64,000 nucleotides of DNA from Hoeflea phototrophica DFL-43 (lineage in GTDB: Bacteria; Pseudomonadota; Alphaproteobacteria; Rhizobiales; Rhizobiaceae): positions 3,545,853 through 3,609,852 of the forward strand of contig NZ_CM002917.1 in the NCBI RefSeq assembly GCF_000154705.2, read 5' to 3'. Positions within the stretch are counted from its first letter, which is position 1; each line of letters starts with the position of its first letter. This document shows, piece by piece, positions 2,650 through 7,575 of the stretch. The position numbers and the translations under genes are program-made. The notes beneath the pieces are model-generated. The model was not told where the DNA came from and did no database searches. It worked only from the letters and a program-made list of their open reading frames with translations.

Positions 2650-3333
2650 ATGCATATCGAACCTGGCGTCGTTGACGGCGCAAAACTGGCCTTGAGCTAT
2701 GCCACGGCCGCTGCCGCAGGCGGCCTGATGATGAAAATGTCCTGGGACACGATCCGCAACGATGGCGGCCTTGCAGCCCTTGGCATGCGCTCGGTCGTCA
2801 CCACGCTTATGGTCTTCACCTTCTTTGAAGTGTTCCCGCATCACGCGGTCGGCGTGTCCGAAGTTCACCTGATCCTCGGCTCGACGCTCTATCTGTTGTT
2901 CGGCGCCGGGCCGGCGGCAATCGGTCTGGCACTTGGCCTGCTGATCCAGGGTGTTGCCTTCGCCCCCTTCGACCTGCCGCAATACGGCATGAACGTCACC
3001 ACGCTTCTGGTGCCGCTCTATGCCATGTCGCTGATCGCAAAGCGCATCATCCCGGCGGGCACCGCCTACAAGGATGTGAGCTACAAGCAGGCCCTGGCGC
3101 TGTCGACCAGCTATCAGGGCGGCATCGTCATGTGGGTCGGCTTCTGGGCACTGTACGGCCATGGCTTCGGCGCCGAAAACCTGTCGCAGATCGCAGCCTT
3201 CGGCGCGGCCTACATGCTGGTGATCATCATCGAACCGCTGGCCGATCTCGGCGTCCTGGCGCTCGCCAAGACGTTCTCCGGCACGCGTAACAACCCGATG
3301 TTCCACAACCGGTTGCACGGCCACGCCGCCTGA
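2650..3333 (+). CDS. CbiM-like energy-coupling-factor permease (cobalt or corrinoid uptake)
   Basis: A 227-residue integral membrane protein starting MHIEPGVVDGAKLALSYATA. The MHI start is typical of CbiM, whose N-terminal residues take part in metal loading. About six hydrophobic segments follow. An ATG after AAGGA was chosen; a frame extending upstream into the riboswitch is not credible. It directly follows the cobalamin riboswitch and ends at a terminator, so it is a single-gene transcript. CbiN, CbiQ and CbiO subunits are absent from the window, so it would have to use partners elsewhere or act alone. Cobalt uptake for B12 synthesis is inferred from family and riboswitch. Confidence 0.82.
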   Translation: MHIEPGVVDGAKLALSYATAAAAGGLMMKMSWDTIRNDGGLAALGMRSVVTTLMVFTFFEVFPHHAVGVSEVHLILGSTLYLLFGAGPAAIGLALGLLIQGVAFAPFDLPQYGMNVTTLLVPLYAMSLIAKRIIPAGTAYKDVSYKQALALSTSYQGGIVMWVGFWALYGHGFGAENLSQIAAFGAAYMLVIIIEPLADLGVLALAKTFSGTRNNPMFHNRLHGHAA

Positions 3334-3355
3334 CGCAGGTCCTGTTCGCTGACAA

Positions 3356-3384
3356 GCCGCGCGGGTTTTCTCGCGCGGCTTTTT
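3356..3384 (+). terminator. Rho-independent terminator of the cbiM-like gene
   Basis: Perfect 8-bp stem GCCGCGCG (3356-3363) with CGCGCGGC (3372-3379), an 8-base loop, then TTTTT at 3380-3384. It lies 22 bases after the permease stop codon. Confidence 0.88.
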
Positions 3385-3874
3385 GGTGTGACTGCCGGCA
3401 ACCGAATCAGATCCATCGGACACTTCCGGCAGACCTGAAAATGCCCGCCGCGCCTCTGAACACACGCGATAAGTGTGGCGGCAAGCTTCCGGCACACCAA
3501 TACAGCGCCACCCATTGCTGGAAGCCGCGCCGCTGAGGACAGAGCGCTCGCGAAGCGCAGAATGTACTCGAAAAAACAAACATGAATCGAACATTCATGA
3601 CTTTTTGAACGCATGCCCGGGATTCGCAGATCCCTGAAATCGGGCGAAATTAAAATTCCGGGAAGCCACAGTACAACCAACTTTGATTTCGAATTCTCGG
3701 AAAATAGAAAACAATATCAATGCTTTATTTAGCGTAAATCGACTTCCAAATTTTGTTTCGCTTGGGGTTTGACACACCAATAAATTGCTGACTACTATTA
3801 ATGCTATCTTATGTTTTGCCAGCACTCCGTAAACAGCGTTCTTTTTGAAACAGACATGACTGGGTGGTAAACAC
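3385..3874. other. AT-rich gene-free region upstream of the PatG-like protease
   Basis: About 490 bases without a supported gene. From about 3590 on the sequence is clearly AT-richer than its neighbours. It contains an inverted repeat CATGAAT-N5-ATTCATG at 3581-3599 that could be an operator, and a promoter-like pair near 3769-3798. A 39-codon frame opening at 3613 lacks a ribosome-binding site and was not called. The base composition hints at separate acquisition of the downstream locus. Confidence 0.6.
3769..3798 (+). promoter_or_regulatory. Candidate sigma-70 type promoter for the protease/peptide operon
   Basis: A perfect -35 TTGACA (3769-3774) and a -10-like TACTAT (3793-3798) are separated by 18 bases, about 75 bases before the GTG start of the protease gene. 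Predicted by eye only. Confidence 0.5.
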
Positions 3875-5872
3875 GTGGCTTGTATTGCAATCATAGATGG
3901 TATCGTTGATGCGGAATGCAACGCATTGTCGGGTGTTGCGGTTTCGGTTGAACGGGCCATGATCCCGGATGGTTTCGACAAGCCGGATTCGCATGCAACC
4001 GAAATCGCCAGCCTGATTTTCGGAAATGGCGCCAACGGCTCTCCCGAACACAATCCCCTGACATGCCTGTCATTGCCGATCTTCTTTCATTCTGGCACCG
4101 GCTCGACGGCAGCCATGGCGTCCCAGATGGATCTGGCCCGCGCTTTGACCATTGCTGCTGAACGCGACGCCGCAATTGTCAACATCAGCGCCGGACAGAA
4201 AGCCGCCAGTTCCGAAGCCGGACGGCATCTCCAGGACGCGGTCAATCTTTGCCTGAGCAAGCGCATCCTCATCATAGCTGCCGCGGGAAATGACGGCTGC
4301 GCCTGCTTGCATGTCCCCGCCGCCATCAATGGCGTCCTTGCGGTCGGCGCGATGGATCTCGACGGCCGTCCGTTTGAGAAAAGCAATTTCGGCGCAGCCT
4401 ACAAAGCCAATGGCATCCTGGCGCCGGGCGTCGAACTGCAGGTCACCGGCACCGGCAACGAGGCGTTGACCCGTTCCGGAACGAGCTACGCCACGGCCGT
4501 GGTCACACAAGTCGCCGGCCAGTTGCTGGCACAGGCCCAACGCACCGGCGTCGCTATGGACCCGATCGACATCATGTCGGTCATACTTGATAGCGCTGAT
4601 GCGTGCGTTCCCGAGCAGGACGAGGATTGCAGCCGCATCCTGGCCGGACGGCTCAACATCGCTGCGGCCTTTCAACTCTTCGAGGAGCGAGCCTTTGCAC
4701 GGACACCCCCACTCCCCGTTCAGCCCAGCCATCTTACGCAACCCAAACCACTGGAGGGAATTCACATGAGCGATGTACACCCGACTGCCCAAGCAAGCCC
4801 AATTGCCGCACAGCCCGCCCCGGCGCCACAGCCGGCACCGGTTATGCCGCAAGCTGCGGCAAGTGCGACTGACATGATGCAGCCCGCCGCTGACATCGGG
4901 CAGAGTGCCTGTTCCTGCCAGGACAAGAAGGAAGAGGTTACGGCTTCCACATCCGTCAGCGCGACAGTTCCCCCTGCAGCTTCCCCGGCCTTGCCGGTGG
5001 CCCAGTCCGCCTCCAACCCGCACAGCCCGACACTCTCGCAACTGAGTTGCGGCTGCGGCGGAGAGTCTGCACCGGCGATCGCCTATGCACTCGGTGCGCT
5101 GTGGTTCGACTACGGCACAGAGGCCCGTTACGACGCGATCGTTCAGCAGATGGGAAGTGCGGTGGCGGCCAACACCCCGGCGCAACTGCTGGATTTCCTG
5201 TCGGACAATCCGGAATTCGCCGGCGGTGTAACCTTCGTCCTCATGCAGGATCAAATTCCGATCTACGCGATCCAGCCGGCAGGCCCGTTTGCAGTCGAGA
5301 TCTACCAGGCGCTGATCGACTCCATAAAAGGGGCGCTGGACGATGACAGCGGCATGCACCGCGTCGGCATCCCCGGCCTCATCAAGGGCACCACCCGGCT
5401 GATGAACGGCATGATCCTGCCCATGCTCTACCCCGACAAACGCGGCATGGCGGAGTGGAAGACCCAGGAATTGGTCGCCCAGGTCAGGGAATTTGCGGAG
5501 AATTCAGCTGGCGATGCACCCGCCGACGACAAGATCTTCAACTTCCTCGTCCGGGTCTATGACGAGCTGCGCAATCTGGGCGCGGCACCTCAGGAGCGGG
5601 CGATCAATTTCGCCGCCACCAATGCATTCCAGGCCGCGCGTGCTTTCAGCCAAGCCGCCCAGAAGGAGCTGGAGCTTTACACCATCAAGGTCAACAAGAG
5701 CCCGATTTGCCGGCCCGATTCCGATTGTTGGGATGTCCAGTTGCAGATGTTCGATCCCGAAAATGAACGCCGCGCCGGCCGGATCTACCGCTTCACCGTC
5801 GATGTCAGCGAGACCTTGCCGGTAACCATCGGTCCGATGCGCCAATGGTCTGCACCGCTGACCCAGATGTGA
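3875..5872 (+). CDS. S8 subtilisin-like protease with PatG-type C-terminal domain (cyanobactin maturation protease family)
   Basis: A 665-residue protein with no signal peptide, so probably cytoplasmic. Residues 1-275 form a compact S8 domain with the triad visible: Asp8 (CIAIIDGIVD), His40 (DSHATEIASL) and Ser204 (SGTSYATA), plus oxyanion Asn139 (AAAGNDG). Residues 280-390 are a Pro/Ala-rich linker with CSC (346-348) and CGCGG (392-396) motifs. Residues 402-665 begin YALGALWFDYGTEARYD, which resembles the domain that follows the protease in PatA/PatG proteins. In cyanobactin pathways PatA removes the leader and PatG cleaves and cyclises the core; which reaction this protein performs is not known. 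The start is GTG, since frames further upstream stop at once. Followed by a Cys-rich peptide gene. No heterocyclase or prenyltransferase is nearby. Confidence 0.85.
   Translation: MACIAIIDGIVDAECNALSGVAVSVERAMIPDGFDKPDSHATEIASLIFGNGANGSPEHNPLTCLSLPIFFHSGTGSTAAMASQMDLARALTIAAERDAAIVNISAGQKAASSEAGRHLQDAVNLCLSKRILIIAAAGNDGCACLHVPAAINGVLAVGAMDLDGRPFEKSNFGAAYKANGILAPGVELQVTGTGNEALTRSGTSYATAVVTQVAGQLLAQAQRTGVAMDPIDIMSVILDSADACVPEQDEDCSRILAGRLNIAAAFQLFEERAFARTPPLPVQPSHLTQPKPLEGIHMSDVHPTAQASPIAAQPAPAPQPAPVMPQAAASATDMMQPAADIGQSACSCQDKKEEVTASTSVSATVPPAASPALPVAQSASNPHSPTLSQLSCGCGGESAPAIAYALGALWFDYGTEARYDAIVQQMGSAVAANTPAQLLDFLSDNPEFAGGVTFVLMQDQIPIYAIQPAGPFAVEIYQALIDSIKGALDDDSGMHRVGIPGLIKGTTRLMNGMILPMLYPDKRGMAEWKTQELVAQVREFAENSAGDAPADDKIFNFLVRVYDELRNLGAAPQERAINFAATNAFQAARAFSQAAQKELELYTIKVNKSPICRPDSDCWDVQLQMFDPENERRAGRIYRFTVDVSETLPVTIGPMRQWSAPLTQM
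4753..4768 (+). promoter_or_regulatory. Strong internal Shine-Dalgarno and in-frame ATG inside the protease gene
   Basis: GGAGGG at 4753-4758, 7 bases before an in-frame ATG at 4766 (codon 298, MSDVHPTAQA), exactly where the protease domain ends and the linker begins. Initiation here would give a separate 368-residue linker-plus-PatG-domain protein. Alternatively it is a relic of two genes that fused. Translation from this site is inference. Confidence 0.55.
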
Positions 5873-5876
5873 TTTT

Positions 5877-5898
5877 CGCAAGGCGTGCCTGCCTTGCG
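5877..5898 (+). other. Stem-loop between protease and peptide genes
   Basis: CGCAAGGC (5877-5884) pairs perfectly with GCCTTGCG (5891-5898) just after the protease stop. A weaker hairpin (AATCCA-TGG-TGGATT) follows. There is no clear T-run, so mRNA processing or partial attenuation is likelier than full termination. Confidence 0.5.
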
Positions 5899-5984
5899 CA
5901 ATGTTTGATCAATCCATGGTGGATTGGTCTTAGCCCGAGCCCAAAGCGCTATGCGGCGGCTCACAACCAACGGAGAAGTGAACC

Positions 5985-6128
5985 ATGAAGTCTCCCAAAC
6001 AGTCTGCACCCGTCAATCGTGACGCCCTGAAGACAGCCAGCGCAGGGGTTGGCCAGTCCTGTTGCCCCGGTGGCAAGCAGTGCTACGGCGTCTGCATCTT
6101 GGGCACCTGCACCGGCATCTGCGCGTAA
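5985..6128 (+). CDS. Cys-rich RiPP precursor peptide candidate, cyanobactin-like leader
   Basis: A 47-residue peptide. GGAGA lies 8 bases before the ATG. The N-terminus MKSPKQSAPVNRDAL resembles cyanobactin (PatE-type) leaders, which carry a PxQxxPVxR element. The C-terminal half contains six cysteines at 26, 27, 33, 37, 42 and 46 (SCCPGGKQCYGVC, then ILGTCTGIC) in a Gly-rich context and ends in Ala47. It lies 112 bases after a PatG-like protease, as expected for a protease and its substrate. The cyanobactin heterocyclase recognition element and the AYDG-type cleavage site are not evident, and no heterocyclase is encoded here, so the mature form (disulfides, macrocycle, other) is open. A bacteriocin or signal role is speculation. 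Confidence 0.75.
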   Translation: MKSPKQSAPVNRDALKTASAGVGQSCCPGGKQCYGVCILGTCTGICA

Positions 6129-6150
6129 GCGAGCTGCCAACCAAAGAAGC

Positions 6151-6182
6151 GGCCGGGGGCGAGACCATCAACGCTCCCGGCC
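6151..6182 (+). other. Stable stem-loop after the precursor gene
   Basis: GGCCGGGGGCG (6151-6161) pairs with CGCTCCCGGCC (6172-6182): 11 base pairs with one G-U, 10-base loop, starting 22 bases after the peptide stop. It lacks a T-run. Such structures often protect a highly expressed short upstream message and lower expression of what follows; that role is inferred. Confidence 0.6.
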
Positions 6183-6224
6183 ACGCCGCAAGCCGGAGAC
6201 AAAGCTTCAGAAGGAACCTGTTAA

Positions 6225-6383
6225 ATGCGCAAGCCAGTTCAAACAGAATCGATGGTGCGAGTTTTCAAACAGGTGTTGTTGAGCAAGATGGCAACGCCGG
6301 ATCACGCGCAACCCAACGCCGCACCAGCCGCCGCGAAGCCGCAAAAACCCAGGGCCGCAAGCAAGAAGAAACAAGACCGGTGA
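6225..6383 (+). CDS. Small basic protein, hypothetical, downstream of RiPP precursor
   Basis: A 52-residue frame opening MRKPVQTESMVRVFKQVLL, with an Ala/Pro-rich middle and a strongly basic tail (PRAASKKKQDR). AGAAGGA lies about 9 bases before the ATG, a good ribosome-binding site. It is the only further frame between the peptide gene and the convergent dehydratase. No family is recognised. It could be a small partner of the peptide system (immunity, binding or second substrate) or a chance ORF. Confidence 0.4.
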   Translation: MRKPVQTESMVRVFKQVLLSKMATPDHAQPNAAPAAAKPQKPRAASKKKQDR

Positions 6384-6488
6384 CAGCTTTCGCCAACCTG
6401 GTCCTCGACCAGGCGCACAAGCCCCGGAACTGACCATGCCGGCATGGCTGACAGCCTTCTGCGCTGGAAACGGTCGCGCCGAAACTGC

Positions 6489-7463
6489 CTAGGCGGCAAA
6501 CCGTTCCAGAGCTATGCGAAACACATCCGCATCGACATTGCCACCCGAGATCGTGACGATCACGTCCCCACCTTCGATCTCGTCACCATGAAACAGCGCA
6601 GCGGCCAGGGCGACAGCGCCACCAGGCTCGGCGACAAGCTTGAGCCGGGAGAAAGCCAGAGCAACGGCATGAAGCGCCTCATCCTCGCTCACGACCAGAC
6701 CCGGACCGGCCAGCCGCGAGATGATCGGAAAGGTCAGGTCCCCCGGTTGCGGGGTGATGATGGCATCGCAGAGCGAACCGGCGCGGCGGCTGTTGCTCTC
6801 GATGACGCCCGAGGCCAGGCTGCGGGCCATGTCGTCAAACCCTTCTGGCTCCACCGGCCGGACCCGCAGCCCGGGCGCGTCCGCCTCCAGAGCCAGCGCT
6901 ATGCCTGACGCAAAACCGCCGCCGCCGCAACACACAAGCACATCGGCGTTGGTGACGCCCTCGGACTTGGCCTGCTCGGCGATTTCCAGTCCGCAGGTGC
7001 CCTGACCGGCGATGACCTGCGGCTCGTCAAAGGGCTTGATCAGGGTCAGGCCACGCGCTGTGGACAGTTCCGCGGCAATCGCATTACGGTCGTCGTTGGC
7101 GCGATCATACAGCACCACTTCGGCTCCCAGTGCACGGGTGTTGTCGATCTTCATTTTCGGCGCATCCGACGGCATGACGATGACCACCGGTGCACCGTGC
7201 CGGGTGGCGGCCAACGTCACGCCCTGCCCGTGGTTGCCGCTGGAAAAGGCGAGGACCCCACGCGCCCGAACATCCGGATCCATTGCCGAGACAGCGGACC
7301 AGCCGCCGCGAAACTTGAAGCTGCCGGTGTGCTGCAAACACTCGGGCTTGACCCAGACGCGCCGGCCCGCGATCTCATCGAGAAACGGAGATGTGAGAAG
7401 GGGCGTGCGCCGCACATGGCCGTCCAGCCGATCTTGCGCGGCGCGAATCATCTCGATGTCCAC
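6489..7463 (-). CDS. PLP-dependent threonine/serine dehydratase family protein
   Basis: A 324-residue fold-type II PLP enzyme. The lysine that binds PLP lies in GSFKFRGG near residue 52, the substrate loop SSGNHGQG near 79, and the phosphate-binding glycine loop CCGGGGFASG near residue 178. Length matches single-domain catabolic threonine dehydratases, with no ACT regulatory domain. The start is a GTG (VDIEMIRAAQ) after AGGA; a longer frame upstream has low-complexity, non-family sequence. The reaction is probably deamination of threonine or serine to a 2-oxo acid; hydroxyaspartate or an ectoine-type substrate is possible. It converges on the peptide locus. Confidence 0.85.
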   Translation of the reverse strand: MDIEMIRAAQDRLDGHVRRTPLLTSPFLDEIAGRRVWVKPECLQHTGSFKFRGGWSAVSAMDPDVRARGVLAFSSGNHGQGVTLAATRHGAPVVIVMPSDAPKMKIDNTRALGAEVVLYDRANDDRNAIAAELSTARGLTLIKPFDEPQVIAGQGTCGLEIAEQAKSEGVTNADVLVCCGGGGFASGIALALEADAPGLRVRPVEPEGFDDMARSLASGVIESNSRRAGSLCDAIITPQPGDLTFPIISRLAGPGLVVSEDEALHAVALAFSRLKLVAEPGGAVALAAALFHGDEIEGGDVIVTISGGNVDADVFRIALERFAA

Positions 7464-7575
7464 TGCGAGTGTCCTGTGTCGGTGAGCTGTTTGCAGGCTA
7501 GAGTGTTTTGGTGTGATTCTCCAAGGCGTTTTGCCCCAAATCCATTGTCCATGGTAGGCGCGGCTCCACCGCCCC

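Follow-up and report, generated by a model that had tools for sequence, protein, structure and literature searches.

What does a protease of the cyanobactin type process when it stands without its usual PatG partner? The question is raised by a stretch of 64,000 nucleotides from Hoeflea phototrophica DFL-43 (NZ_CM002917.1, positions 3,545,853 to 3,609,852), referred to here as the window and numbered from its first nucleotide, in which a gene for an S8 protease is followed on the same strand by a gene for a 47-residue peptide with six cysteines and then by a 52-residue basic open reading frame (ORF). An original prediction had taken this to be a PatG-like protease paired with one peptide in a system for a ribosomally synthesized and post-translationally modified peptide (RiPP); its three reading frames are all confirmed, on the + strand and in the order described. 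We think it likely that the locus is a two- or three-gene unit in which a lone PatA-type protease would cut the leader of the peptide after GVGQS, freeing a linear core with six cysteines.

A stand-alone PatA-type protease

The protease gene (3875..5872, + strand) starts with GTG and encodes 665 residues. Scored against TIGR03895, a check proposed with the original prediction, the protein reaches 818.6 bits over its full length, almost twofold the cut-off of 421.05. A subtilase domain (residues 36-242; 3980..4600, + strand) matches PF00082 at 3.8e-19, the C-terminal half matches PF18047 (PatG_D, 6.5e-18) and PF18065 (PatG_C, 5.5e-42), and a C-terminal segment (5084..5848, + strand) matches the solved PatG domain of unknown function (DUF; 4uvq) with 185 bits. 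Asp8, His40 and Ser204 align to the corresponding D, H and S of PatA. Against solved structures, the catalytic domain (residues 4-270) scores about 170 bits with PatA and PagA (entries 3zxx, 4h6v and 4h6w) and about 85 bits with the PatG macrocyclase. Judged by these scores, the protease stands nearer to the leader proteases of the PatA type than to the macrocyclase PatG, and the epithet 'PatG-like' is right for the C-terminal domain but wrong for the catalytic domain, which is of the PatA leader-cutting type. The protein begins at the catalytic domain (Asp8) and therefore has no room for a signal peptide.

The protease does stand alone, as had been proposed. It is the single TIGR03895-type protein in its genome at E<=0.001, and when ORFs of at least 100 residues from 32 loci were clustered, the protease was the only widespread family, present in 28 loci, with no other spanning more than four. 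The smaller shared groups come mostly from close relatives (Aurantimonadaceae; L038, L039 and L041; cyanobacteria) or are frames antisense to the protease; one joins the cyanobacterial loci L029 and L033 with L035, where its member is the heterocyclase described below. A YcaO (PF02624) search found none in the window's genome (0/1; the control was positive in 5/14), and no other cyanobactin-type genes were seen nearby, prenyltransferases and the small B and C proteins having had no dedicated profile search. At L035 (7887-13115), in a Roseobacter metagenome-assembled genome (MAG), the protease is followed by a SagD/TOMM-family heterocyclase (TIGR03604, 270 against a cut-off of 219 bits; TIGR03882, 128 bits over cut-off), and such partners are therefore detected where they exist. 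The L035 protease groups with cyanobacterial ones (100/100), and L035 is a cyanobactin-like locus in a MAG labelled alphaproteobacterial, possibly a contaminant.

The precursor peptide and the basic ORF

The peptide gene (5985..6128, + strand) encodes a class A precursor, as assigned by a leave-one-out profile and by alignment A1. It opens with the leader motif MKSPKQSAPVNR (MxxPxQxxPVxR; 5985..6020, + strand), a motif whose strict form is concentrated in ORFs downstream of proteases, and continues to a junction, GVGQS (6045..6059, + strand), where the junction pattern and the PatA consensus (PMC10885120) predict a cut after Ser25. The predicted mature core (CCPGGKQCYGVCILGTCTGICA; 6060..6125, + strand) has 22 residues with six cysteines, recognized by the invariant core cysteines and glycines of A1, and the peptide ends ...CTGICA-stop with no AYDG-like follower. 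When the class A profile is built with the window left out, it still finds this peptide at E=2e-14 among the 1182 window ORFs, with the next at 0.16; a leader-only profile made from 30 leaders, none of them the window's, finds it at 1.3e-5, with the next at 0.36.

The basic ORF (6225..6383, + strand) has a leader-like N-terminus in alignment A3 and ranks first of the 1182 for the class D profile, but with an E-value of 0.17 that is not significant alone. Four relatives in class D share R-x-F-M and a C-terminal C-L-x-x-L-x-T-F, and the window ORF is without this tail. The pattern M-x2-P-x-Q-x5-R, chosen post hoc, fits 2 of 5006 window start codons, those of the peptide and of the adjacent basic ORF, which probably belongs to the system as class D. 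For the peptides, Pfam, NCBIfam and PHROGs gave no family above cut-off or E=0.01, and the PDB sequences gave no match either.

Peptides accompany the protease

Proteases of this kind are sparsely distributed. At E<=1e-60, TIGR03895 finds a match in 8 of the 397 order genomes, among them the window's, and in 2 of 385 genomes of a class sample, one being the window's own; within the genus, at E<=1e-30, the window's genome is the only one of 18. Scanning genome contigs yielded 31 loci, which belong to Alphaproteobacteria, Cyanobacteria, Bacteroidota, Gemmatimonadota and a single actinobacterium. Cys-rich peptides lie just downstream of the protease in 20 of 22 distinct alphaproteobacterial loci, window included, the exceptions being L035 and L063; the co-conservation that had been proposed as a check is thus seen in relatives. 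Relatives carry one to several peptides per locus in at least four Cys-rich classes; the system is thus wider than one of each and probably includes the basic ORF. Proteases with no adjacent Cys-rich peptide, which the original prediction would have counted against the pairing, were found in a few relatives, namely L035, L063 and the actinobacterial L045; of these, L045 and L063 encode other small peptides whose leaders are similar, and L035, with its heterocyclase gene, is closer to cyanobactin loci.

The leader motif gives a second view of this association. In the 3 kb that follow each protease, 113,088 bases altogether, there are 47 ORFs with the strict leader (M-x2-P-x4-P-[VIL]-x-R); the other 1,249,846 strand-bases of the 40 loci examined contain 4. 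Three of these loci were entered twice (L016=L057, L017=L056, L042=L061), and two of the four outside ORFs (L018, L040) are themselves members by sequence. In twelve of the 40 loci no strict leader lies near the protease. Among them, L016/L057, L060 and L062 have Cys-rich peptides in which the leader is looser, L018 has one that the strict count missed through the coordinates used, L030 and L036 have small Cys-containing ORFs with degenerate leaders, L044 is cut by a contig end, and L040 has classical cyanobactin-type precursors. L045 (2249-2440, in an actinobacterial MAG) and L063 (10252-10667, in an alphaproteobacterium) have small hydrophobic, nearly Cys-free peptides with similar leaders beside the protease, and substrates therefore need not be Cys-rich. 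L035 has one Cys-poor ORF of another family. A conserved small ORF, similar in its leader (MKLPKQSPPVKRPDLIQPHE...) but lacking a Cys-rich core, lies beside the cyanobacterial proteases of L028, L029, L031-L034 and L040, and it has a relative in L035 (9932-10186).

Peptide profiles run over the 397 order genomes at E<=0.001 point the same way. Class A hits six, five beside a protease (G000, G372, G123, G156 and G343) plus G218, and class B hits seven, five beside a protease (G372, G123, G156, G343 and G399) plus G103 and G201. The class A matches of G123 (4.7e-4) and G343 (5.0e-5, on its class B peptide) are no stronger than that of G218 (4.5e-5), and E-value alone therefore cannot separate them. 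The frames themselves are more telling: that of G218 is a 47-codon stop-to-stop stretch without a leader that overlaps a 604-codon ORF in another frame, that of G103 has few cysteines and no leader, and that of G201 has an internal stop. None of these three genomes is among the eight TIGR03895-positive ones, and a PF18065 search of them was empty, though it had no positive control. As far as sequence can tell, the genuine-looking matches all adjoin a protease; because the profiles were partly built from the same genomes, the positive matches are partly expected, and the informative part is that no credible match lies away from a protease. In the remaining two of the eight genomes, G076 and G126, the Cys-rich peptides are of class C or unclassed.

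Some loci also bear marks of duplication or decay. Repeats of the 3' end of the protease gene occur at L018 (3154-4060, two copies, 97%) and at L030 (3446-5164, four copies of 151 nt), where the repeated ends precede further peptide genes, as if peptide cassettes multiplied by duplication of the protease end together with a peptide. In L042/L061, a Pseudoxanthobacter MAG, the protease frame is broken and the class B peptide has an in-frame stop, through decay or assembly error.

Conserved cores and variable leaders

Within the peptides it is the core that is conserved. In class A, 11 columns are invariant over the ten rows of A1, five core cysteines and two core glycines among them, and class B has eight invariant cysteines in twelve rows; class C mostly has four cysteines, with six in L060 and L062, and class E has six. 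Mean identity of the core against that of the leader segment from R12 to the junction is 0.55 and 0.18 in class A and 0.44 and 0.19 in class B (means that leave out L022, L039 and the class B row of L019). Six class A peptides, three from the window's protease clade (clade I) and three from outside it, have cores 69-81% identical and leaders 22-35% identical, and each has the junction type of its own side. The synonymous rate per site exceeds the replacement rate in 11 of 11 pairs tested, for example 0.60 against 0.088 for class B of L038/L039 and 0.89 against 0.227 for class A of L041/L059. Pairs that include the window are near saturation (2.12 against 0.43; 1.2 against 0.53), and recent pairs say little (0.15 against 0.11 for the L016 duplicate; 0.04 against 0.02 for L021/L022). 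Conservation of this kind points to cores with a fixed role and not to a diversified arsenal.

The junction and the protease clade

Reported cleavage is C-terminal to GLEAS for PatA (PMC4282754) and to G(L/V)E(A/P)S for PatA-like enzymes (PMC10885120). Of the 37 peptides of classes A, B, C and E, a set that leaves out class D (five rows, no Cys-rich core) and the unclassed peptides of L060, L062 and L024, 36 have a PatA-like junction that lies at most four residues before the first core cysteine; with the residues between leader and cysteine shuffled, the mean was 5.7 and the maximum 15 in 2000 trials. The window has GVGQS against G(L/V)E(A/P)S for PatA, and an exact GVEPS occurs in L059.

The residue before the final serine (P2) divides the peptides as the protease tree divides the enzymes. 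It is Gln in all 21 clade-I peptides (20 of 20 without L042, placed in the clade solely by 58% best-segment identity to the window), and in the other 16 alphaproteobacterial peptides it is Pro in 13 and Ala in two, with no junction in one. Clade I has 100/100 support and takes up 11 of the 34 rows of the tree, which leaves out L042 (broken frame) and the partial L044 and L045. Three residues after the catalytic histidine, where other members have the second His of HGTH, all 11 clade-I proteases have lost it (Glu in eight, Asp in two, Gly in one); it is kept in 23 of the 24 other proteases with sequence there, L062 having Leu. The junction pattern, resting on one split, fits a change of specificity tracked by the substrate, and is what such a change would leave.

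Proposed function and alternatives

We propose that the precursor would be made with a leader carrying M-x-x-P-x-Q-x-x-P-V-x-R, that the PatA-type protease, working without PatG, would recognize this leader and cut after GVGQS, and that a linear 22-residue core would be released. No cyclization is expected, because the core ends at the stop codon and offers no follower to a PatG-type enzyme. The freed peptide would then probably fold through its cysteines, by disulfides or, less likely, by metal binding.

Several points weigh against this proposal. Cleavage and product are themselves predictions from sequence, and the junction pattern was derived from the same peptides on which it was scored. 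Clade I is one lineage, so the junction and HGTH may each have changed a single time and be linked through descent alone; in L062 the second His is missing and yet the junction has Pro, and loss of the His is therefore not strictly tied to a Gln junction. At L035 and L063 no Cys-rich peptide accompanies the protease, and no exporter was seen among the shared genes of the loci. For the docking role that we suggest below for the C-terminal domain, it is an adverse result that nuclear magnetic resonance showed no binding of PatE to the isolated PatG DUF (PMC4259220).

Two alternatives keep a small and similar share of probability. One is that the protease cuts the leader while enzymes encoded elsewhere also tailor the core, so that the product would be a true modified RiPP. 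In cyanobactin pathways tailoring precedes the action of PatA-type proteases (PMC4663559, PMC4259220), and the cores are rich in cysteine; we nevertheless regard this as unlikely, since no tailoring family is widely common to the loci and the window's genome has no YcaO heterocyclase, radical SAM enzymes and lanthionine synthetases having had no search. The term RiPP in the original prediction would apply in its strict sense only if the core were modified; leader removal is the only processing predicted here.

The other is that the freed peptides are intracellular metallothionein-like metal binders, activated by removal of the leader. A protease with no room for a signal peptide, the want of an exporter among the shared genes, the conserved spacing of Cys and Gly and cores that are conserved rather than variable would all suit this idea. 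It is improbable to about the same degree as tailoring: no metallothionein or other curated Cys-rich or metal-binding family of Pfam or NCBIfam is matched over its cut-off (the nearest is the CopL model, E=0.08, for the L041 peptide), and the adjacent cobalt-type transporter gene owes its position to the insertion described below, not to a conserved association.

That the protease is a macrocyclase making head-to-tail cyclic peptides like PatG, as the shared family name and C-terminal domain might suggest, is very improbable, and we reject it on the PatA-like catalytic domain and on a core that runs to the stop codon and has no AYDG-like follower. A chance adjacency of protease and peptide, the short frame being no gene, is scarcely credible in the face of the profiles, the co-occurrence and the purifying selection.

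Linear release by a lone PatA-type protease thus remains our preferred reading, and a broader and more speculative suggestion follows from it, one we rate as somewhat less than an even chance. Stand-alone PatA-type proteases and P-V-x-R leaders may make up an unrecognized class of systems for ribosomal peptides, either ancestral to the cyanobactins or parallel to them, with Cys-rich products conserved for a fixed job and a C-terminal domain that would dock the leader here and in cyanobactin enzymes too. The docking role is suggested because the protease is the only shared partner, and because the C-terminal domain and the P-V-x-R motif are the two shared parts without an assigned role.

Insertion history and neighbouring genes

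The entire locus lies on an inserted segment (3400..6480, ends approximate, no strand assigned), identified by a break in similarity and by comparison within the genus. DNA similarity to same-genus genomes ends at 3271-3400 and restarts at 6480-6519. Ten same-genus loci were compared: in nine of them, cbiM and a gene for a pyridoxal phosphate (PLP)-dependent enzyme stand next to each other on one strand with nothing inserted between; in the tenth the PLP-enzyme gene was not found within the stretch examined. In the window about 3.1 kb separates the two, and the PLP-enzyme gene beside the insertion (6489-7466) is inverted relative to the nine. The stretch 5' of the protease (3560-3874) has 38.7% G+C against 60% for the window. 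Acquisition of the locus as a unit, with an inversion at its edge, is most likely, because the site is empty in relatives, the insert is of about 3.1 kb, the PLP-enzyme gene is inverted and the upstream DNA is low in G+C. We rejected a mobile-element reading of the insert on the plasmid-collection and boundary-repeat results: neither insert nor peptide had a match in the plasmid collection, the protease matched 10 of 72,556 plasmid records (cyanobacterial and Streptomyces), two of which cover at least 80% of its length, and none of the repeats listed at the boundaries was clear.

Pfam places an AraC regulator, CbiM and a PALP enzyme in the flanks, the CbiM-like gene upstream of the protease and the PLP-dependent enzyme gene downstream on the opposite strand. 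A Cobalamin riboswitch (2386-2596; Rfam RF00174, 111.7 bits) lies upstream of the CbiM-like gene. We considered and rejected a link of the locus to cobalamin or cobalt; this neighbourhood looks accidental, because a terminator-like stem of 12 pairs (3354-3381), 3' of the CbiM-like gene, intervenes and because the site is empty in relatives. In the AT-rich stretch 5' of the protease there is a promoter-like site, TTGACA-18-TACTAT (3769..3798, + strand; 10/12 consensus matches), though with two such sites found in the region against 1.0 expected the evidence is weak. The hairpin between the peptide and the basic ORF is not notable (z = -1.33).

Significance and comparison with cyanobactin systems

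The locus appears to represent an undescribed kind of bacterial peptide-maturation unit. Searches of an open-access library found no description of the system, a novelty that is provisional with subscription journals mostly outside the search, and the accessible part of a 2023 review of RiPP leader proteases (PMC10885120) mentions no stand-alone PatA-type system. PatA and PatG have been treated as cyanobacterial (PMC4603692, PMC9549277), and a 2015 review has cyanobactin clusters identified in cyanobacteria only (PMC4663559). With a PatA-type protease separated from the rest of the cyanobactin machinery, protease and leader-bearing substrates make a natural minimal system in which the purpose of the P-V-x-R leader element and the function of the PatA/PatG C-terminal domain become testable. 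The clade-specific junction residues amount to a natural specificity experiment, and the loci point to families of conserved small Cys-rich alphaproteobacterial peptides that curated profiles do not name.

Set beside the known systems, the window protease resembles PatA and PagA in its S8 catalytic domain and in having the C-terminal domain, and the junction of the window peptide is like the cut site of PatA, though no exact match to G(L/V)E(A/P)S. Unlike PatA and PagA, it stands alone without PatG, its clade is without the second His of HGTH, and its substrate has Gln before the cut Ser. The likeness to the PatG DUF extends over residues 403-661 of the window protease; residues 410, 419 and 457, in the PatG_D region, differ, being nearly fixed in 21 other proteases and changed in 11 of 11 from clade I. 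The peptides have sub-threshold matches, in the leader only, to cyanobactin leaders (TIGR04446 PirE, PF19158 DUF5840 and the PatE type of TIGR03678), with E=0.015 and 0.016 for the window peptide and 0.042 for class B of L041; unlike cyanobactin precursors they have neither the LAELSEEAL element nor an AYDG follower, and in place of a variable short core they have a conserved Cys-rich one. Active cyanobactin clusters are reported always to encode both A and G proteases (PMC4663559); here the A-type protease is present, the separate G-type protease/macrocyclase is absent from the whole genome at the threshold given above, and the optional heterocyclase is absent at the window as it is from the genome. 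Cyanobactin cores are described as hypervariable (PMC4663559) and are joined to conserved leaders, an arrangement that is reversed in these peptides, whose cores are conserved while their leaders vary.

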